Source: Nitrospira sp. (GTDB taxonomy: Bacteria > Nitrospirota > Nitrospiria > Nitrospirales > Nitrospiraceae). Taken from it: 64,000 bases of DNA. Under the pieces are notes generated by a model. The model searched no databases and was not told the DNA's origin. It worked only from the letters and a program-made list of their open reading frames with translations. Position numbers and translations under genes: made by a program. The stretch spans positions 1,434,721 to 1,498,720 of the forward strand of contig JARFXR010000001.1 of the NCBI GenBank assembly GCA_029194535.1. The letters are read 5' to 3'. Shown here piece by piece: positions 23,884 to 40,405 of this stretch (position 1 is the first letter of the stretch; every line of letters begins with the position of its first letter).

Positions 23884-24917
23884 GCAGGTCTCCTCGATCC
23901 TCCATGGTGAAATCTGAAACTTCGAGACGGACGGAGGGGATATCTAACGCCGTCCTTCGTCGTTATATCGAGAGATTCCCTCAGGCGTCGATCCTGGTCA
24001 TCGGCGATCTGATTCTGGATCATTACATCTGGGGGCGTGTCAGCCGTATTTCTCCGGAGGCGCCGGTGCCGGTGGTGCATGTGGAATCCGAGTCCGTGAG
24101 ACTCGGCGGAGCCGCCAACGTATTCAATAATATTCTGGCGCTCGGGGGCAAGGCGGACCTGTGCGGCGCGATCGGTCCGGATGAGACGGGCCGGAAGTTG
24201 CTGAAGGAATTGAGTGCGAAGCGCTCAAGCCGGGGTGGAGTCGTCATCGATCACGATCGGCCGACCACCAGAAAATCCCGTGTCATTGCGCACAACCAGC
24301 AGGTCGTCCGCTATGATTTGGAGCGGCGGGGCGAATTGAAACCGGCGTTGCAGAAGCGCATTCTCCGGTATGTCGAATCCCGTCTGCGCGAGCTGTCCTG
24401 CTTGGTGGTGTCCGATTACTGCAAAGGCGTCGTGACCGCGACGTTGATGTCCGAACTGACCAAGCTCGCGGCCCTCCGGCAGATTCCGATCATCGTCGAT
24501 CCGAAAGTCGAGCACTTCAGTTATTACAAGGGCGTCACGGTGATCACGCCGAACCACCTCGAAGCCACGCAGGCCGCCGGCTTGCACGGCGACGATGATC
24601 AGGTCATCCAGGAGGCCGGATCGATCATCCGTCAACGGCTCGGATGCCGGTCCGTTCTGGTGACGCGAGGCGACCGCGGCATGAGCCTGTTCGAAGCCGA
24701 CGGAGTATCGTGGCACATTCCGACCAGGGCTCGGCAGGTCTATGACGTCACCGGAGCCGGCGATACGGTGGTCGGCACCATGGCGCTTGCGCTGTCGACC
24801 GGCGCCTCGATGCGCGAAGCCGCGTTGTTGGCCAATCAGGCTGCCGGTGTCGTCGTCGGCATGGTCGGCACGGCGACGGTCGGCGCGAAGCAATTGACGG
24901 AGGCATTGGAGGCATGA
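23880..24917 (+). CDS. hldA: D-glycero-beta-D-manno-heptose-7-phosphate kinase
   Basis: 345 residues from the ATG at 23880, which overlaps the lepB stop. PfkB/ribokinase-type sugar kinase: VIGDLILDHYIWGRVSRISPEAPVPV, the LGGAANVFNNILALGG signature, YCKGVV and the anion-hole motif DVTGAGDTVVGTMA. It phosphorylates heptose 7-phosphate at C1 for the ADP-heptose of LPS core. Only the kinase half (RfaE1) is present; the adenylyltransferase half (RfaE2) is not fused and not in the window. Adjacent KDO genes support the LPS role. Confidence 0.9.
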   Translation: MSRSPRSSMVKSETSRRTEGISNAVLRRYIERFPQASILVIGDLILDHYIWGRVSRISPEAPVPVVHVESESVRLGGAANVFNNILALGGKADLCGAIGPDETGRKLLKELSAKRSSRGGVVIDHDRPTTRKSRVIAHNQQVVRYDLERRGELKPALQKRILRYVESRLRELSCLVVSDYCKGVVTATLMSELTKLAALRQIPIIVDPKVEHFSYYKGVTVITPNHLEATQAAGLHGDDDQVIQEAGSIIRQRLGCRSVLVTRGDRGMSLFEADGVSWHIPTRARQVYDVTGAGDTVVGTMALALSTGASMREAALLANQAAGVVVGMVGTATVGAKQLTEALEA

Positions 24918-25714
24918 CCGGCGTGAAGCCTCAAGTCCTGGTCGTCATTCCCGCGCGCTATGGCTCGTCCCGCTTTCCTGGAAAGCCGCTGGTCATGTTG
25001 GGACGAAAATCCTTGATTCAGCTCGTCTACGAGCAAGCCGCCTCTTGCCGCTCGGTCAAGGAGGTGCTGGTTGCGACGGACGATGAACGGATCCGAGACG
25101 CGGTGGAGCGATTCGGCGGCCGGGCGGTCATGGTCGCTGGCGACTATCGGACCGGCACGGATCGGGTGGCGGCCGTGGCGCGGACCGTGCCGGGTGAATA
25201 CTTCGTCAATTTGCAGGGAGACGAAATTCCCGCGACTCCGGCGCTTCTCGAAGATTTGATCGAGCCCTTTCTCGGGTGCGATGCGGAGATGGGCACGTTG
25301 AAGCGAGCGATGGACACGGAGCATGTGATCGAGAATCCGGCGGTCGTGAAGGTGGTGACGGATTCGCAGGGCTATGCCTTGTATTTCTCCAGGGCGCCGA
25401 TCCCGCTTGTCCGCGACGGTATCCGCGGGCAAGTCGTGAGCCGGTTGCATTACCTGCATCTCGGTCTATACATCTACCGACGCGAGGCGCTGTTGCGATT
25501 TGCCGGGTGGCCGACGAGCCAGCTGGAGGACGCCGAAAAGCTCGAACAGCTGCGCGCTCTTCAACAAGGGATGCGGATTCGCGTGTGGGAGACGTCGCAT
25601 CTTTCGCTCCGAGTGGATACGCCAGAGGATGCCGTAGGGGTCGCGGATAAGCTGAAGCAGTACGAGTCACAGAAACAGGATTTGCCGGTCGGGAAGACGG
25701 TGTCGGCGCGATGA
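24914..25714 (+). CDS. kdsB: 3-deoxy-manno-octulosonate cytidylyltransferase
   Basis: Activates KDO as CMP-KDO for lipid A-core assembly. 266 residues with the nucleotidyltransferase motifs [42 protein letters not shown]-like [12 protein letters not shown] (the usual Pro after Glu is Ile), YFSRAPIP and the [15 protein letters not shown] block. Slightly longer than E. coli KdsB (248). Overlaps hldA by 4 bp. Confidence 0.95.
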
Positions 25715-25754
25715 GGGCGTCGCGCGCATCAAGGTCGGACGAACGGGGGTGCCC

Positions 25755-27356
25755 ATGAGCAAATTCATCTTCGTCACCGGCGGTGTCGTCTCCTCTCTCG
25801 GCAAGGGGTTGGCTTCGGCGTCGATCGGCAATCTGCTGGAAAGCCGCGGCCTCAAGATCACCTTTTTGAAGCTCGATCCCTACATCAACGTCGATCCGGG
25901 AACCATGAACCCCTATCAGCACGGCGAAGTGTTCGTGACCGACGACGGCGCCGAAACCGATCTGGATCTCGGCCACTACGAGCGATACACCTCGCTGACG
26001 TTGAATAAGGAGAACAACTACACGACCGGGCGCATCTACAATTCCGTCATCACCAAGGAACGGCGGGGCGACTATCTCGGCGGGACGGTGCAAGTCGTTC
26101 CGCACGTCACGGATGAGATCAAGCAGTGCATCATGCGCATCTCGAAGGGCATGGATGTGACGATCGTCGAGATCGGCGGCACGGTCGGAGACATCGAAAG
26201 CCTGCCGTTTCTCGAGGCCATTCGCCAGATGCCGTACGACGTCGGCCGAGAAAACGTCCTGTACGTGCATCTCACGCTGGTGCCGTACATCGGAGCGGCC
26301 GGAGAGCTGAAGACGAAGCCGACCCAGCATTCGGTCAACAAGCTGCGGGAGATCGGTATCCAGCCCAACATCCTGCTCTGCCGAACCGACCGCTACTTGC
26401 CGCCCGAGCTCAAGGGCAAGATTGCGATGTTCTGCAACGTCGAAAAGGATGCGGTGATCACGGCGAAGGACGTCGAGACGATTTACGAAGTGCCGATCGT
26501 TTTCCGAAAGGAAGGATTGGACGAATTGATCGTGAAGCAGCTCAAACTGGAAACCGGCCCGCCGAATCTTCGCGAATGGGACGCCATGGTGCAGAAGATC
26601 AAGCATCCCAAGCATGAAGTATCCGTTGCGCTCGTCGGGAAGTACGCCGGATTGAAAGAGTGTTACAAGAGCCTGGCCGAAGCGCTGATGCACGGAGGGA
26701 TCGACCACGAAACCAAAGTCAACATCGACTGGATCGAGTCGGAGGACATTGAGCGGCAAGGAACCGAACGTATCTTGCGTGAAGCGGACGGCATTCTCAT
26801 TCCGGGCGGATTCGGCTCCCGTGGAATTGAAGGAAAGATCACCACGATCCGCTACGCGCGGGAACGACACATTCCGTTTTTGGGGCTCTGTTTGGGCATG
26901 CAGTGCGCCACGATCGAGTTTGCGCGCCATGTTGCCGGACTGGCCGGCGCGAACAGCGCGGAATTCGACGAGCGGGCCACGCATCCGGTGATCCATCTGA
27001 TGTCGGACCAACAATCGGTCAGCGACAAGGGGGGCACGATGCGGTTGGGCGCCTATCTGTGTAAGCTGAGCGAAGGGACGCTCGCGCAGAAGATGTACGG
27101 CGTCGGCGAAGTCACCGAGCGTCATCGCCATCGATACGAGTTCAACAACGCGTATCGTGAACAATTGACGGCCAAGGGGTTGGTGTTGAGCGGGGTCTCG
27201 CCGGACGGCCGTCTAGTGGAGATCGTCGAACTGAAGAACCATCCATGGTTTCTTGCCACGCAGTTTCATCCTGAATACAACTCTCGTCCGCACCGGCCCC
27301 ACCCCCTGTTCAGCGGATTTGTCGGGGCTGCGGTGCGTGGCAAGTTGGGACACTAA
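25755..27356 (+). CDS. pyrG: CTP synthase
   Basis: Makes CTP from UTP, ATP and glutamine. 533 residues. N-terminal synthetase domain: [59 protein letters not shown]-terminal amidotransferase: [31 protein letters not shown] with the catalytic cysteine, and [18 protein letters not shown]. The ATG at 25755 has GGGGG five bases upstream; the in-frame GTG at 25749 is less likely. It supplies CTP for the neighbouring KdsB reaction, and pyrG-kdsA linkage is frequent. Confidence 0.97.
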
Positions 27357-27360
27357 TTGT

Positions 27361-27396
27361 CCTTAATCTCAGCCTCAGCCTTAACCTGAGTTGAAG
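27361..27396. repeat. Degenerate 6-bp tandem repeat between pyrG and kdsA
   Basis: Six consecutive hexamers: CCTTAA, TCTCAG, CCTCAG, CCTTAA, CCTGAG, TTGAAG. The array fills the whole 41-bp gap and ends at the kdsA start region. Confidence 0.55.
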
Positions 27397-27397
27397 A

Positions 27398-28225
27398 ATG
27401 CCGACGCTTGTGGATATAGGTGCTTTCAAGGTTGGGCAGGGACAACGTCCGTTCTTGATCGCCGGACCCTGCGTGATCGAGAACGAGCAACTGGCGTTGG
27501 ACACGGCGGGGCGCATCGCCGAAATCACCCGGGCCCTCGGGATGCCGTACGTCTTCAAATCCTCGTACGACAAGGCGAATCGAACCTCGATCCATTCCTT
27601 CCGGGGACCGGGGCTCAAGAAGGGGCTGGCGGTGCTCGCACAGGTCAAGCGAGAGGTCGGGGTTGCGGTCTTGACCGACGTCCATACCGAGGCGGACGCG
27701 ACGGAGGCTGGTACGGTCGTCGATGTGCTGCAGATCCCGGCGTTCCTCTGCCGGCAGACGGACCTGCTGGTCGCCGCCGCCAAGACTGGGAAGGTCGTCA
27801 ACGTCAAGAAGGGTCAGTTCCTCTCTCCTCCGGAAATGGGCAATGCGGTGAAGAAATTGGAAGAATGCGGCAATAACCGAATCGTGCTCACGGAACGAGG
27901 CTCATCGTTCGGGTACAACAATCTGGTCGTCGATATGCGGTCCTTTCCCATTCTGCGCAGCTTCGGGTATCCGGTCGTCTTCGATGCCACGCACAGCGTG
28001 CAGCTTCCCGGGGGGAGCGGAACCAAGTCAAGCGGCCAACGGGAATTCGTGGAGCCGCTTGCCTGCGCCGCTGCCGGTGCCGGGGTCGACGGGTTCTTCA
28101 TGGAAGTACATCCGGATCCTGATCAGGCCCTGTCCGATGGGCCGAACATGGTTCCGCTCCATCAATTGAAGACGCTCCTTGAGCGTGTCATGCGGATATG
28201 CGACGCAACAAGACCCGCAAAGTGA
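27398..28225 (+). CDS. kdsA: 3-deoxy-8-phosphooctulonate synthase
   Basis: Condenses arabinose 5-phosphate and PEP to KDO 8-phosphate. 275 residues with family motifs [29 protein letters not shown], the RGPGLKKGL loop, [61 protein letters not shown] and [18 protein letters not shown]. The cysteine in LCRQT-adjacent regions and the N-in-place-of-C pattern of metal dependence were not resolved. Follows pyrG after 41 bp and overlaps kdsD by 28 bp. Confidence 0.97.
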
Positions 28226-29226
28226 GCCGTCCTTCGCGACCGTCCGTGTTCGCCAAGCGGTCGGGCGGCAGTCTCCACGAAGGTAAACGTGTGCTCAGAA
28301 TTGAGGCGCGCGCGGTTGAAGCGTTGGTCGATCGCTTGGACGATCGATTCGTGCGGGCCGTCGATTTGCTGTATGGCTGTAAGGGGAAAGTCGTCGTATC
28401 CGGTATGGGGAAGTCCGGCCTCGTGGGCCAGAAGATTGCCGCGACCATGGCCAGCACCGGCACTCCCGCATTCTTTCTTCATCCGGCAGAGGGTCTTCAC
28501 GGCGACCTGGGCATGGTCGGCCGACATGATGTCCTCGTGGCCATCTCGAACAGCGGAGAGGCGCAAGAACTTCTCCAATTGCTGCCCTACATGGAACGTA
28601 TGGGTATTCCCGTCGCCGCAATGACGGGCCGGCCGGCTTCGACGTTGGCCAAACACAGCGATTTGGTGTTGGATGTTTCAGTATCCGAAGAGGCTTGTCC
28701 GTTGGGCCTGGCGCCGACCGCCAGTACGACGGCCACCTTGGCGCTGGGCGATGCCTTGGCCCTCGCGTTGCTGCAAAAGCGGGGGTTCCAGGAGAAAGAT
28801 TACGCGCAGTTCCATCCGGGCGGCGCGCTCGGCCGACGTTTGCTCGTTCGCGTCAAAGATCTTATGCACGCTGGCCAGGATGTACCCACAGTGGAGGAGT
28901 CCGTCACAGGCACGACGGCCATGCTGGAAATGACGGCCAAGAAGCTTGGGATGACCACGGTGGTCGATCGAACCGGTGCGCTGAGCGGAGTCATCACGGA
29001 CGGCGATTTGCGGAGATTCATTCAACGAGGCGGAGACTTCCTGAAGGCTACGGCAAGCGAACTGGCTTCCAGAAATCCGAAATCGATCGGGCCGGACAAT
29101 CTGGCGGCTAAGGCGGTGGAGATGATGGAGCGACATTCGATTACGACCTTGGTCGTGACCGAAGGCGCCAGAAAGATCGTCGGCGTGATTCATTTGCATG
29201 ATTTGTTGAAGCACGGCATTGTATAG
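28198..29226 (+). CDS. kdsD: Arabinose-5-phosphate isomerase (KpsF/GutQ family)
   Basis: Makes arabinose 5-phosphate from ribulose 5-phosphate for KdsA. 342 residues: an SIS domain (about 45-195) with [49 protein letters not shown] and [20 protein letters not shown], and two CBS domains (about 220-340). The basic N-terminal 20 residues are encoded within the overlap with kdsA; an internal start is possible. Gene order kdsA-kdsD makes substrate supply and use adjacent. Confidence 0.94.
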
Positions 29227-29275
29227 ACTGGTTTGTTGATCTTGAAGCGGGCGCCTGCCCTCAGGATGCTGAATT

Positions 29276-29872
29276 ATGAATCGTGTCCTCGAAATGTGGA
29301 GAGCCGTCGGCCAAGAATCCCTCAACCTGCCGAACTTCATCACTCTGTTCCGCATCCTGCTGATTCCTGTTTTTGTCCTGCTGTTCATCACTCCGACCGA
29401 AGACCGCTCTCTGAGCGCGGCGGTGATCTTTGCGGTCGCGGCAATGACCGATTTGCTGGACGGCTATGTGGCACGCCGTACCGGGCAGGTTACAAGGCTG
29501 GGCAAGTTGCTCGACCCCATTGCCGACAAGTTGCTCGTGCTCTCCGCCCTCATCCTGCTCGTCAACGTGGATCGTGTCAGCGCGCTCGTGGCCATTTTGG
29601 TCATCGCCCGGGAAGTGACGGTGACGGGCATTCGCGCTATCGCGGCCGGCGAGGGGATGATCATCAGTGCGGAGACCACCGGAAAATACAAGATGGCGCT
29701 CCAGGTCGTGGCAATCACGATGCTGATCTTGGAGGGCACCGAGGTTTCAGAATGGGGGAACCTCCATCTGGCCGGGATCGTGACGTTGTATCTCTCGCTT
29801 GTGCTGGGATACGTTTCGGGCGGTCGGTATGTCCTGAGTTTCTGGAAACAAGTCGTTGCCAAGGGGCTCTAG
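29276..29872 (+). CDS. pgsA: CDP-diacylglycerol--glycerol-3-phosphate 3-phosphatidyltransferase
   Basis: First step of phosphatidylglycerol synthesis, in the inner membrane. 198 residues, about five membrane helices. The CDP-alcohol phosphotransferase motif D-G-x2-A-R-x8-G-x3-D-x3-D is complete (LLDGYVARRTGQVTRLGKLLDPIADKLL, about residues 60-85). Preceded by LPNFITLFRILLIPVF, usual for PgsA. Followed after 43 bp by plsY, another phospholipid gene. Confidence 0.95.
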   Translation: MNRVLEMWRAVGQESLNLPNFITLFRILLIPVFVLLFITPTEDRSLSAAVIFAVAAMTDLLDGYVARRTGQVTRLGKLLDPIADKLLVLSALILLVNVDRVSALVAILVIAREVTVTGIRAIAAGEGMIISAETTGKYKMALQVVAITMLILEGTEVSEWGNLHLAGIVTLYLSLVLGYVSGGRYVLSFWKQVVAKGL

Positions 29873-29915
29873 CCGTACTCCGGTTTATGTGCATCTCCTT
29901 CATCATCCCCGATAT

Positions 29916-30527
29916 ATGGCAGAAGAATTCCTCTGTGCGTTGATGACAGCGTTCGGCTACGTGCTGGGCGCCATTCCGTTCGGTGTGGTGGTGTCTCAGA
30001 CGCTTTCGTTGCCTGATCCCCGCACGGCGGGAAGCAAGAATGTGGGATTCACAAACGTCCTGCGTGTCTCCGGCGCGAAGGCCGGCATTCTCACGCTTCT
30101 GGGGGATATGGGAAAAGGTTGGGTGATGGGATGGAGCGCGATGCAGTGGCTGACCGTGGAATCCTACATCATGGTCGTAGCCCTGTCCCCGATTCTCGGT
30201 CATCTGGTCTCGCCCTTTCTCAATTTCAAGGGCGGCAAGGGCGTGGCGACGGCCTTGGGGTCGGTGCTGGGTCTGTCACCCTCAATGGGAACCTTGTTGT
30301 TGCTGATCTGGCTCGGAGCGGTGGCGATCTGGCGCTATTCCTCCGGCGGTGCGCTGGCTGCGTTCGGCGTGTTTCCGGTGGTGGCAATCGTCAACGAGCA
30401 GCGACAAGAGTTTCTCATCTTTGCCATCGTCGTCAGCGCGCTTATCTGGGTCAAGCACAAGGACAATATCATTAGGCTGTGGAGGGGAACCGAAAGCAAG
30501 ATCGGTGAAAAGAAGGCCACAGCCTAG
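29916..30527 (+). CDS. plsY: Glycerol-3-phosphate acyltransferase PlsY
   Basis: Transfers an acyl group from acyl-phosphate to glycerol 3-phosphate. 203 residues with five membrane helices. The three conserved loops are present: GAIPFGVV with the first motif, DPRTAGSKNVGFTNVLRVSGAKAG (consensus includes G-S-N-G-A-T-N; here SKNVGFTNV, slightly altered) and FLNFKGGKGVATALG. The start at 29916 gives a normal N-terminus. It needs PlsX for substrate, which is not in the window. Its stop is 1 bp from the end of the convergent gene. Confidence 0.93.
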   Translation: MAEEFLCALMTAFGYVLGAIPFGVVVSQTLSLPDPRTAGSKNVGFTNVLRVSGAKAGILTLLGDMGKGWVMGWSAMQWLTVESYIMVVALSPILGHLVSPFLNFKGGKGVATALGSVLGLSPSMGTLLLLIWLGAVAIWRYSSGGALAAFGVFPVVAIVNEQRQEFLIFAIVVSALIWVKHKDNIIRLWRGTESKIGEKKATA

Positions 30528-30528
30528 C

Positions 30529-31545
30529 TCATGGAGATGAGTCTTTGGTCAAGTAGTGCTTGATCAAGAGGGCGCGACTCTCGTTCGCCTTCGCTGAAGG
30601 GTGTCGATCGAGCCGGTGGATGTAGTACTCCCTTCCCATCCTTCCGGTATCCGGGGCAAGCGTCAAATCAATCATGTCAATGCCCATTCCCGCCAGCCGG
30701 TCGATGATTTTCTGGTTGGAGAATGTGCCGGAGAACCAGTCCTCGTCCGCCATGATGAACCCGACAAGGAATCGTTGGCCGCGTGCGCGTGACAGGCGAT
30801 CGAGCTGTTTGATAGTCGCCAAATACAGTTCAATTTCTCCGTCCTGACTCTGTTCATGGATAAATTGGTTTATCTGCCGGTAGAGATTGGAATGACTCAA
30901 AATCCGGCTGCCCAGGCTGTTCCAATCCTCGGGCTTCGGACAACTTCCGTCCAGGACCAATCGGTCATCTCCTCCTAGAATATATTTCGGGGACCCCTGC
31001 CCGAAGGCTGGAACGCATGCGGACCTTTCGGCATGCCATGGAGCGGTGAGCAGAAAATTGATGTTTCCTGCGACATCTTGGCTCCGTTCGAGGATTCGCA
31101 ACGCTTGATGAACTCCGTACCCCGACATCTCGTAATTTTTGACGTCGATATGGTTCGCGATGGCATGGAGAAAGTACGGGAGCGTCTCATTGTCGTTTAA
31201 ACCCTCCCCAAACATGAACGAACAACCGAAAAAGTTCATGTGGAGCTGTGCGGCATGATTGGATTGAGAGGTGACGCGGAAGCGGTCGTCCCCGATGGAA
31301 TAGATGACATCGTAAATAACCTCGCCTTCCGCGCTCAGCCTCTTGCTCGTGTACCTCCCTGGGAGCGGCAGAAACCCAAGCTCGGACATCGAGTGATACA
31401 CGTCCCACCGTTTCACCATATCGCTGTCCGGTGAAAAATACGTCGTCCGGTCTTTCCCGAGAGTCACGCGAGGCTGACCGACCATTCCCGTCGTAAATTC
31501 CGCCAACGCCAACGAGAGCATGATCGCGCTCATCGAGACAAGCAC
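30529..31545 (-). CDS. SGNH/GDSL-like protein, N-terminally cut by an in-frame stop
   Basis: 338 residues on the minus strand from a GTG. The fold signature is HMNFFGCSFMFGEGLNDNETL (block I, with Ser109 as nucleophile) and RLDRHPSAKANESR near the C-terminus (Asp/His of the last block). The N-terminal 20 residues are hydrophobic and are the second half of a longer membrane region: 27 bp upstream of the GTG an in-frame TGA (31573-31575) separates it from another 42 codons that encode a membrane helix. The original gene very likely started at 31701. The domain itself is intact, so a shortened, possibly mislocalised protein could still be made. Related SGNH proteins act as O-acetyl- or other esterases on envelope glycans; the substrate here is unknown. 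Confidence 0.65.
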   Translation of the reverse strand: MLVSMSAIMLSLALAEFTTGMVGQPRVTLGKDRTTYFSPDSDMVKRWDVYHSMSELGFLPLPGRYTSKRLSAEGEVIYDVIYSIGDDRFRVTSQSNHAAQLHMNFFGCSFMFGEGLNDNETLPYFLHAIANHIDVKNYEMSGYGVHQALRILERSQDVAGNINFLLTAPWHAERSACVPAFGQGSPKYILGGDDRLVLDGSCPKPEDWNSLGSRILSHSNLYRQINQFIHEQSQDGEIELYLATIKQLDRLSRARGQRFLVGFIMADEDWFSGTFSNQKIIDRLAGMGIDMIDLTLAPDTGRMGREYYIHRLDRHPSAKANESRALLIKHYLTKDSSP

Positions 31546-31914: not shown

Positions 31915-31943
31915 TTGACTCTGTTTCACCCCCTCCATATAAT
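31915..31943 (+). promoter_or_regulatory. Near-consensus promoter of the MutL-Memo operon
   Basis: TTGACT (31915-31920, 5 of 6), 17-bp spacer, TATAAT (31938-31943, 6 of 6), 41 bp before the first gene of the operon. Confidence 0.75.
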
Positions 31944-31984
31944 GCCGACTCAGCTTCTGTTTTGGCCAGGTCTGACCTCCACGG

Positions 31985-32356
31985 ATGCGCCCCTTGTCGA
32001 GGGAACACTTCGCGAAAACACTCCACGAATTGCGAATCGGGTTGCGGCATGCCTTCGCGACGCAATCCGAGCCTGATCCTCTCTCTGTAGAGGAGAGGGA
32101 GTTGATGGAGCGTATAGCCGGTGCGATCGTGAACCGAGGCATGGCGGCTCCGGCCGCAGTATTTCTGGAGTCGATGGGGCCGATGAGTTTTCTCGGCAGT
32201 CAGGCCCTGCATGCCTGCTCTCCGCTTCTCGAATTGGCGGTCGACGCAAAGGATCTCGAGCGATTGGCTCGGTTGATGGAGCGCCGAGAAGCCGTGCCTT
32301 GTCTAATCGCAGCCATCGAGGCCAAAGCATCCTCCCGGGGAGCAGCGGCTCAATGA
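31985..32356 (+). CDS. Small conserved-looking soluble protein
   Basis: 123 residues, mostly helical, no signal or membrane segment. The stretch MAAPAAVFLESMGPMSFLGSQALHACSPLLELAVDAKDLERLARLMERREAV has the regularity of a conserved family (I recall similar 100-120 residue proteins described only as hypothetical). The gene overlaps the MutL-family gene by 4 bp (ATGA), suggesting the products are made together. No catalytic motif is visible. Confidence 0.72.
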   Translation: MRPLSREHFAKTLHELRIGLRHAFATQSEPDPLSVEERELMERIAGAIVNRGMAAPAAVFLESMGPMSFLGSQALHACSPLLELAVDAKDLERLARLMERREAVPCLIAAIEAKASSRGAAAQ

Positions 32357-34206
32357 CCGCGTCTGCTCCTCCCAAGCTCTCCACAGCTGTGCCGTTGAAC
32401 GTGATCGTCGCGACGGATTGCGGGAGCACGACGACCAAGGCCATCCTCATTGAAAAGATTGGCGAGGAATACCGGCAGACGTATCGCGGGGAAGCGCCGA
32501 CGACCGTCGAGGCGCCATTCGAGGATGTCACGCGAGGGGTCCTGAATGCGATCGCCGAGATCGAGGAGCTTTCCGGGCGAAAGATTCTGGACGATGACAA
32601 GATCATCACGCCCAACCGCGCGAGCCAAGGCGATCCCAAGACGGGCGTCGATATCTACATTTCCACCAGCAGCGCGGGCGGCGGCTTGCAGATGATGGTC
32701 ACAGGCGTCGTGCAGAGTATGACCGGGGAGAGTGCTCAACGAGCTGCGCTCGGCGCGGGAGCGATTGTCATCGATGTCTTGGCCTCCAACGATGGACGAC
32801 TGCCGCATGAAAAAATCGAACGAATCCGATCCATGAGACCCGACATGATCCTGATGTCCGGCGGCACGGACGGCGGCGCCGTCACCCACGTCGTCGAAAT
32901 GGCTGAATACGTGGCTGCCGCCGAGCCGCGTCCTCGATTCGGCGCGACCTACAAGCTACCCTTGATTTTTGCAGGTAACAAGGATGCTCGATCCCAGGTG
33001 CAGCGCATTCTCGGAGACAAGGCCGCTTTGGAGATCACCGACAACATCAGACCGGTCTTGGAAAAAGAGAATCTCGCGCCGGCGCGGGACAAAATCCATG
33101 ACTTGTTTCTGGAGCATGTCATGCAGCAGGCGCCCGGCTACAAGAAGCTCATGGAGATGACGGGCGCTCCGATCATGCCGACTCCCGCGGCGGTCGGCGT
33201 CATCATGGAGACGATTGCGAAACGGGAACGGCTCAATCTGATCGGTGTCGACATCGGAGGCGCTACGACGGACGTGTTCTCGGTGTTCCGCGGAATATTT
33301 AACCGCACGGTCAGCGCCAATCTTGGGATGTCCTACAGTATTTCGAATGTGCTGGCCGAAGCGGGCTTGTCCAATATTATGCGGTGGGTGCCCTTCACGA
33401 TCGACGAGCAGACCATCCGCAATCGCATCAAGAACAAGATGATTAGGCCGACGACCATCCCGCAGACGCTCGACGAGTTGCAGATCGAACAGGCGATCGC
33501 GCGGGAGGCGCTCAGGCTGGCATTGATCCATCACAAGTCTCTAGCAAGCGGGCTGAAAGGAGTGCAGCAGGAACGGACGATTTCCGACATGTTCGAGCAA
33601 CAAGCATCTGGGAAGACGCTCATCGACATGTTGCAATTGGATCTGATTGTCGGCAGTGGCGGCATCCTGTCCCACGCTCCCCGTCGCGTGCAATCGATGC
33701 TGATGATGGTGGATGCTTACGAACCTCTCGGCTTCACCGCACTGTCGGTGGACAGTATTTTCATGATGCCTCATTTGGGAGTGCTGTCGACCATCGACGA
33801 GAAAGCGGCCGTGGACGTCTTTGTCCGGGATTGTATGGTCTACCTCGGCACGTGCATCGCTCCCATCGGCCAAGGAAAGGACGGGGAGTCTTGGATGGAC
33901 TGTGACATCGCGTTCTCCGACGGCAGCATCATCGAATCTCATCTGAAATTCGGAGATCTTCAGGTGTTTCCGTTGGAATCCGGCGCCACGGCGAAAATCA
34001 CCGCGCGTCCGGCCAAGCAGGCCGATCTCGGTGCCGGTCCGGGAGTCACGATCACTCGTGAGGTGCGGGGCGGTGTCGTCGGTCTCATGCTGGATGGGCG
34101 AGGTCGGCCTGTGATGCTTCCGGGCGAGCGGACTGCGCGCGCGGCGGCGTTGACGAAATGGTTCAACGCGGTCAATCTTTACCCAGTGCTGGATGCTGAG
34201 GGATGA
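32353..34206 (+). CDS. MutL/GlmL-family ATPase-like protein
   Basis: 617 residues of the actin/ASKHA type: NVIVATDCGSTTTKAILIE (phosphate 1 loop), LIGVDIGGATTDVFSVF (phosphate 2-like loop), and VGSGGILSHAP (adenosine loop). This is the family called glutamate mutase L after its linkage to the glutamate mutase genes of clostridia (not DNA mismatch repair MutL). There is no glutamate mutase in the window, and the neighbours are membrane proteins, so the family name probably does not describe its role here. Its C-terminal codons and TGA stop lie inside a heptamer repeat. The start at 32353 is set by the ATGA overlap and by the family N-terminus. Confidence 0.85.
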   Translation: MTASAPPKLSTAVPLNVIVATDCGSTTTKAILIEKIGEEYRQTYRGEAPTTVEAPFEDVTRGVLNAIAEIEELSGRKILDDDKIITPNRASQGDPKTGVDIYISTSSAGGGLQMMVTGVVQSMTGESAQRAALGAGAIVIDVLASNDGRLPHEKIERIRSMRPDMILMSGGTDGGAVTHVVEMAEYVAAAEPRPRFGATYKLPLIFAGNKDARSQVQRILGDKAALEITDNIRPVLEKENLAPARDKIHDLFLEHVMQQAPGYKKLMEMTGAPIMPTPAAVGVIMETIAKRERLNLIGVDIGGATTDVFSVFRGIFNRTVSANLGMSYSISNVLAEAGLSNIMRWVPFTIDEQTIRNRIKNKMIRPTTIPQTLDELQIEQAIAREALRLALIHHKSLASGLKGVQQERTISDMFEQQASGKTLIDMLQLDLIVGSGGILSHAPRRVQSMLMMVDAYEPLGFTALSVDSIFMMPHLGVLSTIDEKAAVDVFVRDCMVYLGTCIAPIGQGKDGESWMDCDIAFSDGSIIESHLKFGDLQVFPLESGATAKITARPAKQADLGAGPGVTITREVRGGVVGLMLDGRGRPVMLPGERTARAAALTKWFNAVNLYPVLDAEG

Positions 34207-34271
34207 GTGCCGAGACGGGCATTCGGACACGGCTTGGCACGCAGCGCGTAGCACTCAGCACGCAGGACTAT
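34187..34271. repeat. Inverted pair of 7-bp tandem arrays after the MutL-family gene
   Basis: Left arm: TGCTGGA, TGCTGAG, GGATGAG, TGCCGAG (34187-34214). Right arm: GCACGCA, GCGCGTA, GCACTCA, GCACGCA, GGACTAT (34237-34271). The right-arm unit is close to the reverse complement of the left-arm unit. The TGA of the MutL-family gene (34204-34206) lies within the third left unit. Confidence 0.6.
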
Positions 34272-34278
34272 TTGTAGT

Positions 34279-35406
34279 ATGGCGCACAGCTATACGCCCG
34301 GACTGACCGTTACCGACCGCACGATGGTTCATCGCCGTCGACTGTTGCCCTTGGCCGGCGAGGTGTTGGTCAACATCGGCGATAAGGTCCGATCCGACCA
34401 ACCCGTGGCCCGCGTGCGGCTGCCCGGGAAAGTGTATCCGGTCAATCTCGCAAATCAACTCAGTGTGGCTCCAGGCGAGATTAAAGAGTATCTCGTCAAA
34501 CGCGAAGGGGATGCCATTCAAAAGGACGAGATCCTGGCCGAGAACAAGCCGATCATCAAATGGTTTAAGACGGAGATCCGGTCGCCCGTGGGGGGAACGA
34601 TCGAATCGGTGTCGAGCGTGACGGGGCAAGTCCTGCTGCGCGAGCCTCCGCGTGTCCTGGATCTACTCGCCTATGTGGACGGGATCGTCGCGGAGATCAT
34701 CCTCCATCAGGGCGTCGTAGTCGAGGCCGATTGTGCGCTGGTGCAAGGCATCTTCGGTATCGGGGGCGAGACCTGGGGCGACATTGTCGTGGCGGTCGGA
34801 TCTCGCGACGAGCCGTTACTCCCGGCACATGTGAGTCCTGCCATGAAGGGAAAGGTCGTCGTCGGCGGGTCGTTTCTCTCCACGGACACAATGGCGAAGG
34901 CGAAAGCGACGGGAGTGGCCGGCTTGGTTGTCGGCGGTATTCATGATAAGGACCTACGCGAACTGCTTGGTTATGATCTGGGCGTTGCCATCACCGGTAC
35001 GGAGCAAGTCGGATTTACGTTGATTCTCACGGAGGGATTCGGCGCGATTCCCATGGCCGCCAAGACCTTCGGCCTGTTGTCCGCTCATGCGGGACAGAGA
35101 GCGTCGATTTCAGGGGCGACGCAGATTCGGGCCGGTGTGATTAGACCGGAAATCGTGGTGCCCTACAGGGAACCGGCGTCAACAGGTGCCGGTCGGGACC
35201 GACAGCAGGAGGGCGTTAGGCTCGGAGACTCGGTCCGTATCATCCGGGACCCGTTCTTCGGCCGGATCAGCGAGGTGTCGGCGTTGCCGCATGATTTGAA
35301 GAAGATTCCCACGGAGAGCGAGGTTCGGGTACTCGAAGTGAGGTTTTCCGACGGCACGCGAGCGGTGGTTCCTCGCTCGAACATTGAAGTGATCGAAGGA
35401 GGCTAA
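34279..35406 (+). CDS. Barrel-sandwich / KOW-like protein of unknown function
   Basis: 375 residues, no signal peptide or membrane segment. The N-terminal 150 residues look like repeated barrel-sandwich (biotinyl/lipoyl-like) hairpins: LPLAGEVLVNIGDKVRSDQPVARVRLPG and EIRSPVGGTIESVSSVTGQVLL, but there is no lysine in a lipoyl/biotinyl EDK or MKM motif. The middle (about 190-280) has GVAGLVVGGIHDKDLRELLG and VAITGTEQVGFTLILTEGFG, and the C-terminus has a KOW-like segment GDSVRIIRDPFFGRISEVSALP. I recall such proteins next to MutL-family genes; function is unknown. It may form part of a complex with the MutL-family ATPase. Confidence 0.78.
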   Translation: MAHSYTPGLTVTDRTMVHRRRLLPLAGEVLVNIGDKVRSDQPVARVRLPGKVYPVNLANQLSVAPGEIKEYLVKREGDAIQKDEILAENKPIIKWFKTEIRSPVGGTIESVSSVTGQVLLREPPRVLDLLAYVDGIVAEIILHQGVVVEADCALVQGIFGIGGETWGDIVVAVGSRDEPLLPAHVSPAMKGKVVVGGSFLSTDTMAKAKATGVAGLVVGGIHDKDLRELLGYDLGVAITGTEQVGFTLILTEGFGAIPMAAKTFGLLSAHAGQRASISGATQIRAGVIRPEIVVPYREPASTGAGRDRQQEGVRLGDSVRIIRDPFFGRISEVSALPHDLKKIPTESEVRVLEVRFSDGTRAVVPRSNIEVIEGG

Positions 35407-35460
35407 GGCGAGTAGGGTTAGAGGGGTAAGGGGTAGCGGGGTGAAGACAAGGAGTAGGGG
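35405..35460. repeat. Degenerate 7-bp tandem repeat (consensus GTAGGGG)
   Basis: Eight consecutive heptamers fill the gap: AAGGCGA, GTAGGGT, TAGAGGG, GTAAGGG, GTAGCGG, GGTGAAG, ACAAGGA, GTAGGGG. The first overlaps the TAA of the upstream gene. The array is G-rich on the coding strand. Confidence 0.55.
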
Positions 35461-35468
35461 AGACAAGC

Positions 35469-36728
35469 GTGAAGACTGAATGCGCTTGGTCGCTGATTCT
35501 GAAAACCTTCGCAGTCGCGTGGTTGCTGAGCTTGTGGCCTGTGTTCGCGGTGGCGCAGGAGCCGCTTCCTCCGCCGCAAGGTCTTCAAGTGTTCGATACC
35601 CCCAACGATGCCGGGAAGAGTCTGACCGTTCTGTGGGCTCCCGGGCTGGCGGATGATCCCCAGACCCGCTATCAGGTGCTCGCGGGTGAGGGAGGGTTGT
35701 CCGACGCTTCGATGCTCAAGGTCATTGCTGAATTCCCGGCCGACAGCCATTTTGTACGAGAGACGAAAGCTCCTTGGTGGACCAGACGCGCAGAGGCTTC
35801 GTGGCATCAATTCGTGATCAAGAGCGGCAAGAATCTCGAGATCAAGGACGGGCATGTCTATGCCGTCACAGTGGTCGCGGTCCGCGGTGATCAGCGAGCG
35901 GCAGGGTCGATCCTGCAGGCGAGTTCGACTCCTGATTGGTTTAACTGGAATCAGGCGAACAATCTACTGGTCGCGCTGGGGTTCGGGGGTCTTGTCTTTT
36001 ACACGATCAGTCACGCAAAACGAAAAGACATTTTTCTCCGCCGTATTGCCGGTCTCGATGCCGTGGACGAAGCGATCGGACGGTCGACGGAGTTGGGGAA
36101 GCCCATTCTCTATCTGACCGGTGCCCATGACATGAGCGATCCTTCGACGATCGCCGCGGCGGTCATTCTCGGTCGCGTCGCCAAGAAGACCGCTGCCTAT
36201 GAAACGGAATTGATGGTGCCGCACCGAGACCCCATTACGATGGCGGTCTGTCAAGAAATTACCAAGCAGGCGTATTTGGAGGCGGGAAAGCCGGACTTGT
36301 TCAAGGATGACTCCAACTTCTTCATCACATCCGACCAATTCAGCTATACGGCAGCGGTCGATGGGATCATGCTGCGTAAGAAGCCGGCCGCGAATTTCTT
36401 CATGGGATCCTTTTTCGCCGAATCCCTCCTGCTGACTGAGACCGGCGCGAGCACGGGGGCGATCCAGATTGCCGGCACTGATTCCGATCATCAGTTGCCC
36501 TTCTTTGTCACCACCTGCGACTACACGCTGATCGGCGAGGAACTCTATGCCGCCAGCGCCTACCTCTCGAAAGAGCCGATCCAGATCGGCACGTTGCGAG
36601 GGCAGGATATCGGAAAGGCGGTGATTCTGTCCGCCATCGCCATCGGAACCGTGGTGGCGACAATCGGGGTCGTGACGGGCGCTCAATGGCCCCATCTGAT
36701 CATCGACGTCCTCAGGGATCTCAAATGA
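35469..36728 (+). CDS. DUF6754-like membrane protein with Fn3-like domain
   Basis: 419 residues, GTG start. A signal-type hydrophobic segment (about 11-30) is followed by a beta-rich Fn3-like domain (about 40-150: LPPPQGLQVFDTPNDAGKSLTVLW...), a membrane helix (about 165-182), a cytoplasmic alpha/beta domain (about 190-370) with AGLDAVDEAIGRSTELGKPILYLTGAHDMSD and FFMGSFFAESLLLTETGASTGAIQIAG, and a last helix (about 383-403). The pattern matches what I recall of DUF6754, an uncharacterised family. The gene overlaps the next one by 4 bp. Likely a central component of the operon-encoded membrane complex. Confidence 0.75.
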   Translation: MKTECAWSLILKTFAVAWLLSLWPVFAVAQEPLPPPQGLQVFDTPNDAGKSLTVLWAPGLADDPQTRYQVLAGEGGLSDASMLKVIAEFPADSHFVRETKAPWWTRRAEASWHQFVIKSGKNLEIKDGHVYAVTVVAVRGDQRAAGSILQASSTPDWFNWNQANNLLVALGFGGLVFYTISHAKRKDIFLRRIAGLDAVDEAIGRSTELGKPILYLTGAHDMSDPSTIAAAVILGRVAKKTAAYETELMVPHRDPITMAVCQEITKQAYLEAGKPDLFKDDSNFFITSDQFSYTAAVDGIMLRKKPAANFFMGSFFAESLLLTETGASTGAIQIAGTDSDHQLPFFVTTCDYTLIGEELYAASAYLSKEPIQIGTLRGQDIGKAVILSAIAIGTVVATIGVVTGAQWPHLIIDVLRDLK

Positions 36729-37375
36729 TTTTCATGCGACGACAGCTGCCGTTGCTGATCACTATGATCGCAGGATTGACGTTTGCGGCGCAGTACTACA
36801 TCCCGCATCCGCAATCCGAGCAGATGCTGACGTCCGTGACAAAGTGGCTGCAGATCATCGGAGGATTTGCACTCATACTGGGTGTCTCCAGTCTGTTTCA
36901 GCAGCATGCCGTCAAGATTCGCCGGAAGGAATCAGGGTGGGGCTACAGTCTCGTCTTGTACGCAGGCATTGTCGGTACGATTGTCGCCGGGTTGCTCGCC
37001 AATGGAAAAGAAAGCGTCGACGGCTCGATGACCGCATTCGGATGGGTGTACTCCTTCATGATGGTGCCCTTACAAGGCACGATGTTTGCCATTTTGGCTT
37101 TTTTCATTGCGTCCGCCGCATACAGGTCGTTCAGGGCGCGCAGTCGTGAGGCGGCGGTGCTGCTGATCGCCGCCGTGATCGTGATGATGGGTCGAGTTCC
37201 ATTGGGTGAGTACATGCTTCCAATCAGCGGAGATGTGTCGCAATGGATTCTGAACGTGTTGAATGCCTCCGTTCGACGGGCCATCTTGATAGGAGTCAGT
37301 CTCGGAGCCGTCGCCTTGTCCTTCAAGATCATATTCGGAGTCGAACGATCGTATTTAGGAGGGGGGAAAGAATAA
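36725..37375 (+). CDS. Polytopic membrane protein of unknown function
   Basis: 216 residues with about six membrane helices (first at 8-24, last at 187-206) and few charged residues between them. It overlaps the DUF6754-like gene by 4 bp, so the two are probably made as partners. No family motif recognised. The tail ends FKIIFGVERSYLGGGKE. Confidence 0.75.
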   Translation: MIFMRRQLPLLITMIAGLTFAAQYYIPHPQSEQMLTSVTKWLQIIGGFALILGVSSLFQQHAVKIRRKESGWGYSLVLYAGIVGTIVAGLLANGKESVDGSMTAFGWVYSFMMVPLQGTMFAILAFFIASAAYRSFRARSREAAVLLIAAVIVMMGRVPLGEYMLPISGDVSQWILNVLNASVRRAILIGVSLGAVALSFKIIFGVERSYLGGGKE

Positions 37376-37390
37376 CGTGAACGACCGTCT

Positions 37391-37488
37391 CGTGTTTCGA
37401 GTTTCAGGTTTCGGGTTCGTCCGTATCAGAGACTCAAAACCCGCAACCTGAAATTCATGTACTTCACGAAATACGCTTCACGCCTCAC
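37391..37488. repeat. 7-bp tandem arrays with an inverted-repeat core
   Basis: Left arm CGTGTTT, CGAGTTT, CAGGTTT, CGGGTTC (37391-37418); right arm CTCAAAA, CCCGCAA, CCTGAAA (37433-37453) is its near reverse complement: 37402-37417 and 37438-37453 pair at 15 of 16 positions. A third, unrelated set follows in phase: TTCATGT, ACTTCAC, GAAATAC, GCTTCAC, GCCTCAC (37454-37488). It occupies almost all of the gap before the next gene. Confidence 0.6.
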
Positions 37489-37500
37489 GTGGAACGGTTT

Positions 37501-38346
37501 ATGAGCTTCTCTGAACGCATGCTGAAAATCGACCGGCGGATCATTTTTGTGGTGATCGGCCTCTGCACGCTGTTGCCGTTGCTCTATCCCGTCGGTCTGC
37601 CCATCAAGATCTCACCTGAAGTGCGGAGCGTGTACGACTACATGGAGTCGCTGCCTCCCCATTCGGTGTTCCTGCTCTCAATTGATTTTGATCCGGCATC
37701 GAAGCCAGAGTTGCATCCGCAGGCGGTCGCCCTCCTCCGCCATGCATTTCGAAAGGATCTGCGGGTGGTCGCCATGACCTTGTGGGTGAGCGGCACCGGC
37801 ATGGCCGAGCAGCTCGTCACCCAGATGGCGCAAGAGGCTGGGAAGGAGAACGGGAAGGACTATGTGTTTCTCGGATGGAGTCCCGGCGGATCCGCAGTCA
37901 TCATCAATATGGGACAAGATCTGTACACGGCGTTTCCCAGCGACTATGGAGGTCGTGCCACGAAGGGGCTGCCGGTGTTGGATGGCGTGTACAGTCTAAA
38001 GGATGTGACTTATGCCGTCAGTCTCGGGGCGGGCGTGCCGGGTGTGGAAGCCTGGTATGTCTTCGGGAAGGACAAGTACAAGTTTGAACTGGCCGGGGGC
38101 TGCACAGGTGTCATGGCACCGGGATTGTATCCGTTGCTCAGGAGCGGCCAAATCAATGGATTGATCGGAGGACTGCGAGGCGCGGCAGAATACGAAAGCC
38201 TGATCGGCCAGAAGGGACGAGCGGTCGCCGGGATGGACGCCCAGTCCGCAACCCATCTCGCGATCATTGTGCTGGTGGTGATCTGCAATCTGTTCTACTT
38301 TTCGCTCAGAAGGCAGGCCAAACTTCAAAGCCAGAGATCATCGTAA
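37501..38346 (+). CDS. Membrane-anchored alpha/beta protein of unknown function
   Basis: 281 residues with a membrane helix near each end (about 15-33 and 250-268) and a soluble domain between. That domain has strand-helix features of a Rossmann-like fold (SVFLLSIDFDPASKPELHPQ; RVVAMTLWVSGTGMAEQLVTQ; DYVFLGWSPGGSAVIINMGQD). The ATG at 37501 is chosen over the in-frame GTG at 37489, which lies at the end of the repeat array. Found in a fixed order between two polytopic membrane proteins, so it is probably part of the same complex. Confidence 0.75.
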   Translation: MSFSERMLKIDRRIIFVVIGLCTLLPLLYPVGLPIKISPEVRSVYDYMESLPPHSVFLLSIDFDPASKPELHPQAVALLRHAFRKDLRVVAMTLWVSGTGMAEQLVTQMAQEAGKENGKDYVFLGWSPGGSAVIINMGQDLYTAFPSDYGGRATKGLPVLDGVYSLKDVTYAVSLGAGVPGVEAWYVFGKDKYKFELAGGCTGVMAPGLYPLLRSGQINGLIGGLRGAAEYESLIGQKGRAVAGMDAQSATHLAIIVLVVICNLFYFSLRRQAKLQSQRSS

Positions 38347-38361
38347 GGAGTCGGGATTACC

Positions 38362-39114
38362 ATGGATGCCGGAGTTCTAGGGGCGTGGATGGCGACAGGC
38401 TTAACCCTGTTCATTTTCTCGTTTCTCTACAAAGATAATCCCCTCTTCAAGCTTGCCGAGCACCTGTACGTCGGAGTATCCGTCGGCTATGCGATCGTGA
38501 AGACTTTTGACTCGGTGATCCTGCATCTCATTGTAAAGCCCATATTCGAACAAGGTGAGTTCTCATTGTTGATTCCGGTGGCGATCGGGTTGCTGATGCT
38601 GACCCGGTACGTCCCGAACGCCGCCTGGATGTCCCGTTACGCGTTTGCCTTCATTGTCGGAGTGGGGTCGGGGCTTGCGATTCCTCGGACGATTTCCTCG
38701 TTCATTCTCAAGCAGATCGAAGACACCGTGCGCCCGCTGCTCTCGTTGGCCGGTCAAGACGGCGTCGCTTTTTCGGTGAATCTCCTCAATCCGGCGAGTA
38801 ATCTGAATACCATCATCATTTTGATCGGCGTGAGCTCCGTGTTGTTTTATTTTTTCTTCTCCATTGAGCACCAGGGGCCCGGGAAGGTCGTGGCCCGGAC
38901 CGGTGTGTTCTTTCTGATGACCGCCTTCGGCGCCGCATTCGGCTACACTGTCATGGCCCGAATGTCGTTGCTGATCGGTCGCCTGACGGACATGATCGAA
39001 TTTTCGGATGCGTCCTACGGCCGTCCGACCCTCTGGTTGACGGTTCTCACCATTGCTGCTCTGGCCCTGCTGACGCGTCGGCGGGAGAATGAACCCTCCA
39101 CCTCGGACCGGTGA
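38362..39114 (+). CDS. Polytopic membrane protein of unknown function
   Basis: 250 residues with about seven membrane helices (first at 5-23; last at 222-240) and a short polar tail. The loop FKLAEHLYVGVSVGYAIVKTFDSV after the first helix is unusually ordered for a loop and may be conserved. It starts 15 bp after the previous gene with AAGGAG upstream. No family recognised. Confidence 0.75.
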   Translation: MDAGVLGAWMATGLTLFIFSFLYKDNPLFKLAEHLYVGVSVGYAIVKTFDSVILHLIVKPIFEQGEFSLLIPVAIGLLMLTRYVPNAAWMSRYAFAFIVGVGSGLAIPRTISSFILKQIEDTVRPLLSLAGQDGVAFSVNLLNPASNLNTIIILIGVSSVLFYFFFSIEHQGPGKVVARTGVFFLMTAFGAAFGYTVMARMSLLIGRLTDMIEFSDASYGRPTLWLTVLTIAALALLTRRRENEPSTSDR

Positions 39115-39163
39115 CCTTCGCGGTTGCAGCTTCTTCCGCCTCTCCATTACAATTGAGGTCGTC

Positions 39164-40405
39164 ATGACGGCAGGCACTCCCAAAGATCCCGCACAGTATC
39201 CTGTGCTCCGAAACCTCCAGTTCTCTCCGATCAAGGAGGGGGACGATCAGTTTGTGGTACTGTGGGACCCAAGCGGGTTGAGCAAAGACAAGTTGGTGCT
39301 GCCGTTGAGTTATTTCTTTATTATCCAGCATTTTGACGGTGAACATTCCCTCCAGGAAATCGGCGGCTTGTACTTGAAGCGGTTCGGTGAGTTCCTTCTG
39401 CCGAATAAAGTCGAGCAGCTGGTTGCAGACTTGGAGTCAAAACTGTTTCTCGAGGGTCCGCGCACTGATCAAGCCAGAGCGGAGGCGCTTCAGGCATATC
39501 GACAAGGGCCCTTGCGCCATGCGCAGTTCGCCGGAAGAAGTTATGAGGCCGATGGCGCCAAGCTGCGAAAACAAATCGATGGATTCTTTACTTCGAAAGA
39601 AGGGCCGGACTTCAAACCTTCTCCAAACTCAGGAAAGCCGATCCGAGGACTGGTTGTGCCGACCTACGACTTGAAACAAGCGGGTCCGGTCTATGCCTGG
39701 GCCTATAAAGAACTACAGGAAGCGCAACAACCGGACGTTTGCGTGATCGTCGGCACCGCCAACGCGGGACTTGAGAATATCTTTGCCGTCACGGACAAAG
39801 ACTTTGAAACGCCGCTCGGCGTCGTGCGGGCGGACAAAGCCATATTGGGTCGGCTTCAAGCGATCGTGCCGGAGTTTTTTGCCGAAGACATCGCGCATGA
39901 CTCGGAACATGCCATCGAGTTCCAATTGCCGTTTCTTCAAACCAATACCGGCACCACGAGGCCGGTGACCATCGTGCCGATTCTCTCCTCATTTTCCGCG
40001 ATGAGCCTCGGCAACCCATCTGTGCGAGGAACAGTCGATCGTTTTCTGGCGGCGTTGCGAGACGCGATCGTGTCGTCGGGGAAAACCGCTTGCGTGATTG
40101 CGGCGGGAGAGTTAGCCCATCTCGGCATGCGCTACGGCGACAGCGCGCCGCCCACCGACTTTTCGTTTCACCGGTCGATGCAGCACGATCTCGAAATGCT
40201 GAAGCCGGTGGAAGAACTCAAGCCGGAAGAGTTCGCCGCCTACATCGTGAAGGAAAACGACCAGCGCCGCATTTCCGGGTTCTCGCCCATCTATTGCCTG
40301 CTTCGGCTCATCCAAGCCGACAAGGGGCAGGTGCTCCGCTACGACCGCGGCATTACCGATCAATACAACTCCACAGTCACCTACGCCAGCATGAGCTTCC
40401 ACTAG
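39164..40405 (+). CDS. Memo-family (AmmeMemoRadiSam B-like) protein with altered metal site
   Basis: 413 residues. The C-terminal 255 residues have the Memo fold: IRGLVVPTYDLKQAGPVYAWAY, VCVIVGTANAG, DSEHAIEFQLPFLQ, VTIVPIL and VIAAGELAHLG. The N-terminal 100 residues (YPVLRNLQFSPIKEGDDQFVVLWDP..., helical after residue 48) are an added domain resembling a PqqD-like winged helix. In Memo the copper/iron ligands include the His of P-H-A-G-Y and the His of G-P-x-H; here these read PTYD (Thr167) and GTAN (Asn200), while the EH pair (248-249) and His319 remain. The radical-SAM and AmmeA partners are not in the window. The start at 39164 has GAGG six bases upstream. Confidence 0.85.
   Translation: MTAGTPKDPAQYPVLRNLQFSPIKEGDDQFVVLWDPSGLSKDKLVLPLSYFFIIQHFDGEHSLQEIGGLYLKRFGEFLLPNKVEQLVADLESKLFLEGPRTDQARAEALQAYRQGPLRHAQFAGRSYEADGAKLRKQIDGFFTSKEGPDFKPSPNSGKPIRGLVVPTYDLKQAGPVYAWAYKELQEAQQPDVCVIVGTANAGLENIFAVTDKDFETPLGVVRADKAILGRLQAIVPEFFAEDIAHDSEHAIEFQLPFLQTNTGTTRPVTIVPILSSFSAMSLGNPSVRGTVDRFLAALRDAIVSSGKTACVIAAGELAHLGMRYGDSAPPTDFSFHRSMQHDLEMLKPVEELKPEEFAAYIVKENDQRRISGFSPIYCLLRLIQADKGQVLRYDRGITDQYNSTVTYASMSFH

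Follow-up and report, generated by a model that had tools for sequence, protein, structure and literature searches.

A MutL-type protein and a four-protein membrane cassette conserved as a seven-gene set in Nitrospira and other bacteria: a candidate ATP-using envelope system

Which process is served by a run of eight genes found in Nitrospira sp., and do all eight belong to one unit? The genes lie at positions 31985-40405 of a 64,000-nucleotide stretch (GenBank assembly GCA_029194535.1, contig JARFXR010000001.1, positions 1,434,721 to 1,498,720 of the forward strand), hereafter called the window. All are intact open reading frames (ORFs) on the + strand, with starts corrected through conservation among relatives. 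They were brought to attention by an initial annotation that described them as an eight-gene MutL-DUF6754-Memo operon. We find that the conserved core consists of seven genes, namely a motor module (g1, the MutL-type protein g2, and g3) and a membrane cassette (g4-g5-g6-g7), and that the eighth, a Memo-family gene, is disfavoured as a core member and is better described as a lineage-specific neighbour. The gene set itself is well supported; the work it does we infer, and we tentatively favour one ATP-using inner-membrane machine of two modules, which would move or assemble a component of the envelope. The features are as follows.

31915..31943, + strand: sigma-70-type promoter TTGACT-17-TATAAT, 11 of 12 consensus bases
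31985..32356, + strand: g1, 123 amino acids (aa), no predicted transmembrane (TM) segment, motor module
32353..34206, + strand: g2, MutL-type ASKHA ATPase-like protein, 617 aa (PF13941)
34279..35406, + strand: g3, MutL partner with a barrel-sandwich domain and possibly a KOW-like C terminus (PF00364)
35469..36728, + strand: g4, signal peptide, Fn3 domain, TM segment, alpha/beta DUF6754 domain, TM segment (PF20539, AlphaFold 2 model)
36725..37375, + strand: g5, polytopic membrane protein (hydropathy)
37489..38346, + strand: g6, Rossmann-like domain between two TM segments (AlphaFold 2 model)
38362..39114, + strand: g7, polytopic membrane protein (hydropathy)
39164..40405, + strand: g8, Memo-family protein, co-located, not core (PF01875)

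The three close gene pairs first noted are present: g1/g2 and g4/g5 share 4-nt ATGA overlaps, and g6/g7 are 15 nt apart. The other gaps measure 72 nt (g2/g3), 62 nt (g3/g4), 113 nt (g5/g6) and 49 nt (g7/g8).

What kinds of protein are these? The architecture first proposed, a membrane set with an actin-fold ATPase-type protein, is borne out by family and motif matches on one side and by hydropathy on the other. Indeed, g2 belongs to the MutL superfamily (PF13941: E 8e-129, 430.7 bits for a gathering cut-off of 27), and in an alignment from which truncated or over-long ORFs were excluded it retains conserved blocks that we take to be the phosphate-1 (DCGSTTTKA), phosphate-2 (GVDIGGATTDVFS) and adenosine (GSGGILSHAP) motifs. 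A PDB profile search with MutL gave nothing convincing (best E 0.44). The small g1 matches no Pfam or NCBIfam family above cut-off; in loci of Brocadiae and Elusimicrobia, a homologue precedes MutL. As for g3, of the barrel-sandwich and KOW-like features attributed to it, the former stands (PF00364 Biotin_lipoyl: 26.5 bits, cut-off 22.1) and the latter is weak (best E 0.01).

The four membrane proteins, one of them with an Fn3-like domain, were also correctly recognized, as hydropathy places TM segments in g4, g5, g6 and g7. The protein g4 is a near full-length member of DUF6754, an unnamed Pfam family confined to the region that follows Fn3 (PF20539: E 1.7e-117, 391.6 bits for a gathering cut-off of 27, profile positions 3-254 of 257). 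Its AlphaFold 2 model (predicted local distance difference test, pLDDT, 89; predicted template modelling score, pTM, 0.67) runs from a signal peptide through Fn3, a TM segment and an alpha/beta domain to a second TM segment. The Fn3 domain is real both by fold (Z 11.2, root-mean-square deviation (rmsd) 2.4, 95 residues aligned) and by PDB profile (E 9.5e-6); its matches filled the fold-search list for g4, so that the DUF6754 domain was hardly probed. In g6, a Rossmann-like domain is modelled between two TM helices (pLDDT 94.6, pTM 0.89), with generic Rossmann-like matches only in the fold search (best Z 10.8, rmsd 3.5, 140 aligned) and nothing convincing in the PDB profile search (best E 0.36). 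Both g5 and g7 have four TM segments in the window and up to six in relatives, g7 showing conserved residues at D25, E33, E169-H170, R200 and R207; none of g5, g6 and g7 matches a Pfam or NCBIfam family above cut-off. By the positive-inside rule, the Fn3 domain of g4 and the Rossmann-like domain of g6 would face the periplasm, and the DUF6754 alpha/beta domain the cytoplasm. The alpha/beta domains of g4 and g6 share the same order of helix-strand alternation and both sit between TM helices, but their profile comparison is not significant and we do not claim homology.

How constant is the set? To collect relatives, a DUF6754 alignment was scanned against genomes representing one species each, and the best 80 of at least 430 relatives were kept, so the list of phyla is a lower bound. 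Phylum names are taken from record titles, mostly of metagenome-assembled genomes (MAGs), and single cases may be misbinned; counts are of loci rather than species (L053/L098 and L059/L078 share identical upstream DNA). Named families of the order Nitrospirales are Nitrospiraceae, UBA8639, NS-4 and UBA2166 (PMC12342949); we use f1-f4 as separate family-level labels. All 20 fetched Nitrospirales loci carry g1 to g7 in order, and 18 carry all eight genes, the two without Memo belonging to f4. Outside Nitrospirota, g4-g5-g6-g7 are in order in 40 of 44 loci, and the remaining four (L068, L123, L134, L140) hit a contig end before the last cassette genes. The titles of these 44 comprise Methylomirabilota, Planctomycetota (including Brocadia), Latescibacterota, Elusimicrobia, Poribacteria, Edwardsbacteria, Gemmatimonadaceae, WOR-3, Eisenbacteria, one Proteobacteria MAG and plain 'bacterium', with ten phylum-level names. 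Thus, of the eight genes proposed to keep together, the core does so in unrelated phyla and Memo, adjoining in 0 of 44 of these loci, does not.

The motor genes are found on these non-Nitrospirota loci less regularly: g3 in 22, MutL in 15 and g1 in 13. The full order from g1 to g7 occurs in seven, among them L135, with an extra gene between g3 and g4; in L165, from a 7.8-Mb Planctomycetota genome, the seven genes run uninterrupted. Apparent changes of order in L067 and L125 are an artefact of sorting ORFs by extended starts. Minor variants include a split g6 (L110), a doubled g6 (L105) and, in the same Latescibacterota locus L105, a DUF445 protein between MutL and g3 (L105:7406-8659). In L081 (2964-6755), an insert of about 4 kb with a UvrD-like helicase and DUF2290 separates g5 from g6 and is possibly a mobile island.

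Do the two modules occur together even where they are not neighbours? Among 148 Nitrospirota genomes, MutL is above cut-off in the same 31 that have DUF6754 (Fisher p 1e-32, relatedness ignored), one further genome having a sub-threshold MutL match. Among 246 Planctomycetota, 57 have both, 5 DUF6754 only, 9 MutL only and 175 neither (Fisher p 5e-40, with the same proviso). In 27 distant DUF6754 genomes, MutL was found in 27 and g3 in 26. Of the 10 relatives in the collection that lack DUF6754, 6 (from Nitrospirales) were tested, and neither MutL nor g3 was found in any (0/6). The membrane protein g5 was present in 23 of 38 tested genomes, exactly those with DUF6754, and DUF6754 itself in 0 of 14 well-known control genomes. 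In Brocadiae and Poribacteria, the MutL and DUF6754 sets are unlinked yet in the same genomes; in Poribacteria, different contigs carry MutL, g3 and g4-g7, each beside unrelated genes. Physical association of the parts we likewise infer, save for MutL and g3-like sequence, which are fused in two Planctomycetota proteins:

L177:4278-6749: fused MutL-g3, 824 aa; MutL 5-473, g3-like 499-732 and 775-824
L176:703-2808: fused MutL-g3, 702 aa; g3-like 535-651

In L177, the large ORFs adjoining the fused gene look by eye like antisense noise.

The cassette, on the other hand, multiplies while the motor does not. Duplicated or triplicated g4-g7 cassettes stand in tandem in L120, L122, L128, L146 and L164, with partial repeats in L142 and L145, and genomes G188, G189 and G203 have 3, 4 and 3 copies of g5, each with one MutL and one g3. 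Because g4-g7 or g5 multiply while MutL and g3 stay single, one motor appears to serve several membrane units. This, together with a membrane unit that seems two-sided, leads us to prefer the moving or assembly of an envelope component to a scaffolding or redox role. MutL would bind and hydrolyse ATP in an ASKHA fold, and the barrel-sandwich protein g3 would couple its movement to the cytoplasmic domain of g4. The movement would then pass via g4-g7 to the periplasmic Rossmann-like domain of g6 and the Fn3 domain of g4, and its outcome would be an envelope component moved or assembled across the inner membrane or into it. Where one motor has several cassettes, a single ATPase would serve different substrates; both the substrate and the direction of coupling are guesswork. 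A bolder version is possible but doubtful, namely that the set is an undescribed, phylum-spanning class of ATP-powered membrane machine in which the four-subunit membrane unit is driven by a GlmL-related actin-fold (ASKHA) ATPase instead of one from the ABC, AAA+ or P-type classes, a single motor serving several interchangeable cassettes.

Several observations weigh against such a machine. No part of the set matches a known transporter. Five Planctomycetota, as counted above, have DUF6754 without MutL, g3 was not found in G201, and the Fisher values take no account of relatedness. Conversely, three Planctomycetota (G353, G269, G255) have a DUF6754-type MutL with g1, and g3 in two of them, without g4 or g5; these are either incomplete assemblies or cases of the motor working alone. 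In the four Poribacteria MutL loci, no g1 was detected beside MutL, and in L146 a third g4 is not followed by g5. A MutL-g3-like pair stands without an adjoining membrane cassette at L174:5391-8329 and L175:2001-5014; the genomes concerned (G214, G242) contain DUF6754 as well, and the pair is possibly a second, related system. Finally, the genes flanking the set in other phyla are unremarkable and vary with the lineage (PMT-like, B12-radical SAM, ABC/SBP, MscS, trypsin/PDZ, DUF445, MFS, TatD, M42, AP_endonuc_2 and sulfatase proteins, among others), and for this reason we dropped the attempt to deduce a function from neighbouring genes.

The interest of the set lies first in its distribution: it is found in most tested Nitrospira-related genomes (nitrite oxidisers), in anammox bacteria of the Brocadia type, in Methylomirabilota and in numerous groups known chiefly through metagenomics. 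A function restricted to nitrification is unlikely, because the set occurs in Poribacteria and Elusimicrobia. Wide conservation and steady gene order suggest a machine that is probably important to these bacteria, and the motor, if it is one, would be a new way of coupling ATP to membrane work. DUF6754 is named in no paper covered by our literature search, which left most subscription journals and preprints outside, and, among the titles and abstract beginnings screened, nothing on this system was found, glutamate mutase L being mentioned in one unrelated paper. Since no tested family or system accounts for the set, we regard it as undescribed, while another annotation could place it among GlmL-type ATPase systems.

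Could the proteins instead hold a position rather than move a substrate? In a membrane-anchored cytoskeletal or positioning system, MutL would form actin-like filaments or patches, which g3 and g4-g7 would anchor and localise, presumably in the way of PilM with PilN/O/P or MreB with MreC/D. The ASKHA-type motifs of MutL are consistent with this, as are the below-cut-off hits that a MutL relative gives against the Pfam families MreB-like_C and FtsA, the high conservation of MutL across phyla (the window protein is 63-70% identical to non-Nitrospirota rows) and the presence of a soluble adaptor with membrane partners. However, several cassettes per single MutL fit a shared motor better, and GlmL and hydantoinase-type ATPases, the closest named relatives, are not known to form filaments. 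We therefore consider a cytoskeletal role unlikely, though it is the strongest of the alternatives to a transport or assembly machine.

A redox complex in the style of Rnf or Nqr is improbable. Here g3 would be the RnfC/NqrA-like subunit, MutL an ATP-driven electron activator, and the membrane subunits would carry electrons or ions. The barrel-sandwich part of g3 does show a weak likeness to the RnfC_N and NqrA_N profiles (E 0.01; 16.2 bits for RnfC_N, cut-off 25.6), the fused MutL-g3 protein shows a similar one at E 0.001, and RnfC/NqrA subunits also have membrane-protein partners; all these matches are below the Pfam cut-offs, though, and no Rnf or Nqr membrane subunit is recognized among g4-g7. 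Cysteines C41, C512 and mostly C519 (numbering from 32299) are conserved in DUF6754-type MutL. Yet g3-g7 have few conserved Cys or His residues (one or two His each, one Cys in g4) and no paired heme or Fe-S motif. Further support could be sought in Tll0287-like proteins with CxxCH, which lie singly or in pairs between g3 and g4 in six f2 genomes:

L064:7889-9413, and also L065, L066, L071 and short loci L001-L004, L006 and L008: Tll0287-like genes (PF11845, scanned for L064)

Among the collected loci, these genes are nevertheless confined to f2, the rest giving no match at E 1e-5.

Is Memo a working part of an eight-protein unit? The family assignment is firm (PF01875: E 1.2e-39, matching residues 145-435 in the longer version of the ORF), and g8 scores above the TIGR04336 (protein B) cut-off (105.9 versus 26 bits), like the Memo component of the AmmeMemoRadiSam system. 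Of that system, AMMECR1 (PF01871) was not found in the window's own genome (G000), in a search that did not extend to the radical SAM partner. In favour of membership, Memo directly follows g7 in the 18 Nitrospirales loci mentioned above and adjoins the cluster in 49 of 56 Nitrospirota loci, and G023 lacks both DUF6754 and Memo. Nevertheless, a genome-wide survey of 29 genomes shows the two to be separable: all 5 tested f3 genomes without DUF6754 have Memo, and it was found in neither of the 2 tested f4 genomes with the cluster (G027, G033). This separability and its absence beside every non-Nitrospirota locus are why we regard Memo as a lineage-specific neighbour untied to the seven-gene core; the eight-gene unit of the initial annotation is not supported, and a working role for Memo within it is very improbable. 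Memo is single-copy in its own genome. It also bears an N-terminal extension of about 120 residues (window 39164-39520) with no Pfam match, which may resemble PqqD-like winged-helix domains.

The least probable alternative holds that g2, as a factor of the GlmL type, reactivates or otherwise assists a B12-dependent mutase, with the membrane genes as bystanders. Homology is not in doubt: aligned over 77% of the query, g2 is about 28% identical to the glmL annotated in Peptoclostridium acidaminophilum, falls in the same PF13941 family and has the same nucleotide-binding motif blocks. It differs from GlmL in running about 125 aa past the end of the GlmL model and in being partnered with g3 and a membrane cassette, whose genes co-occur with the DUF6754-type MutL. 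Its score under the NCBIfam equivalog NF040745 (GlmL) is 235.5 bits for a cut-off of 475, compared with 632.6 for an annotated GlmL (L187), although two glutamate-mutase-linked GlmLs of Planctomycetota also fall short, at 437 and 431. Under TIGR01319 (GlmL family), g2 reaches 168.7 bits for a cut-off of 204.05, and four glm-type proteins reach 273-453. In a MutL tree built from 51 of 93 rows (the window protein and 92 ORFs from loci, of which the Nitrospira ones were thinned; G213, G243 and G275 left out), the 42 DUF6754-type rows form one group (Shimodaira-Hasegawa-like approximate likelihood ratio test, SH-aLRT, 99), far from the four glm-type rows across a very long branch, long branches being flagged by the tool.

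The partner enzyme points the same way. Glutamate mutase E (PF06368) has no match in the window's own genome and exceeds its cut-off in none of the 34 genomes searched, with one sub-threshold match in G188; other B12 mutases were outside this search. The same search is positive in 4 of 19 genomes, and thus works: in four of the nine MutL-only Planctomycetota (G213, G243, G300, G435), glutamate mutase E directly adjoins MutL on the same contig. A fifth, G397, has a glm-type MutL without glutamate mutase E. Glutamate mutase is accordingly rejected as the MutL partner. Because it is below cut-off in all 34 genomes, yet lies beside MutL in four DUF6754-free Planctomycetota, the MutL of the DUF6754 set is, judging from sequence comparison, not GlmL, and the suspicion raised at the outset that a name derived from glutamate mutase misleads here is supported. 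At the least, this sets the present MutL apart from glutamate mutase and defines a seven-gene system. Two other classes can be dismissed briefly: an anti-phage defence system (0 PADLOC families at E up to 0.001 for all eight proteins) and a mobile element (no DUF6754 match in plasmids and none confirmed in viral contigs).

How is the set expressed? The near-consensus promoter reported ahead of the eight genes is there and recurs across Nitrospirales. By itself, the window promoter is not significant (5 promoter-like sites observed versus 4.3 expected). An 11/12 match was found in 35 of 61 scanned upstream regions, all 35 among the 48 from Nitrospirota (window included) and none among the 13 from elsewhere, and 0 of 1220 shuffles attained it. 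Exact 17-spaced matches number 37 in 2.3 million strand-bases of the loci, 34 of them no more than 300 nt upstream of g1; of the other three, one is upstream at a distance of 344 nt, and two fall barely within g1 ORFs for which an early start codon had been chosen. The footprint aATTGACTCTC...cCcct.C.TATAATgc is kept in 37 Nitrospirota rows (window included). The promoter together with part of its spacer (CCCCT before TATAAT) is unusually conserved across Nitrospirales and may represent a strong type of housekeeping promoter in this order.

Divergent from the operon, a 338-aa ORF (window 30529-31545, - strand) has no Pfam match at E 0.001. Further upstream, window 24914-30527 carries genes for a cytidylyltransferase, a CTP synthase, a DAHP/KDO8P-type synthase, a SIS-CBS protein, a CDP-alcohol phosphatidyltransferase and a glycerol-3-phosphate acyltransferase, which probably constitute an envelope-lipid block.

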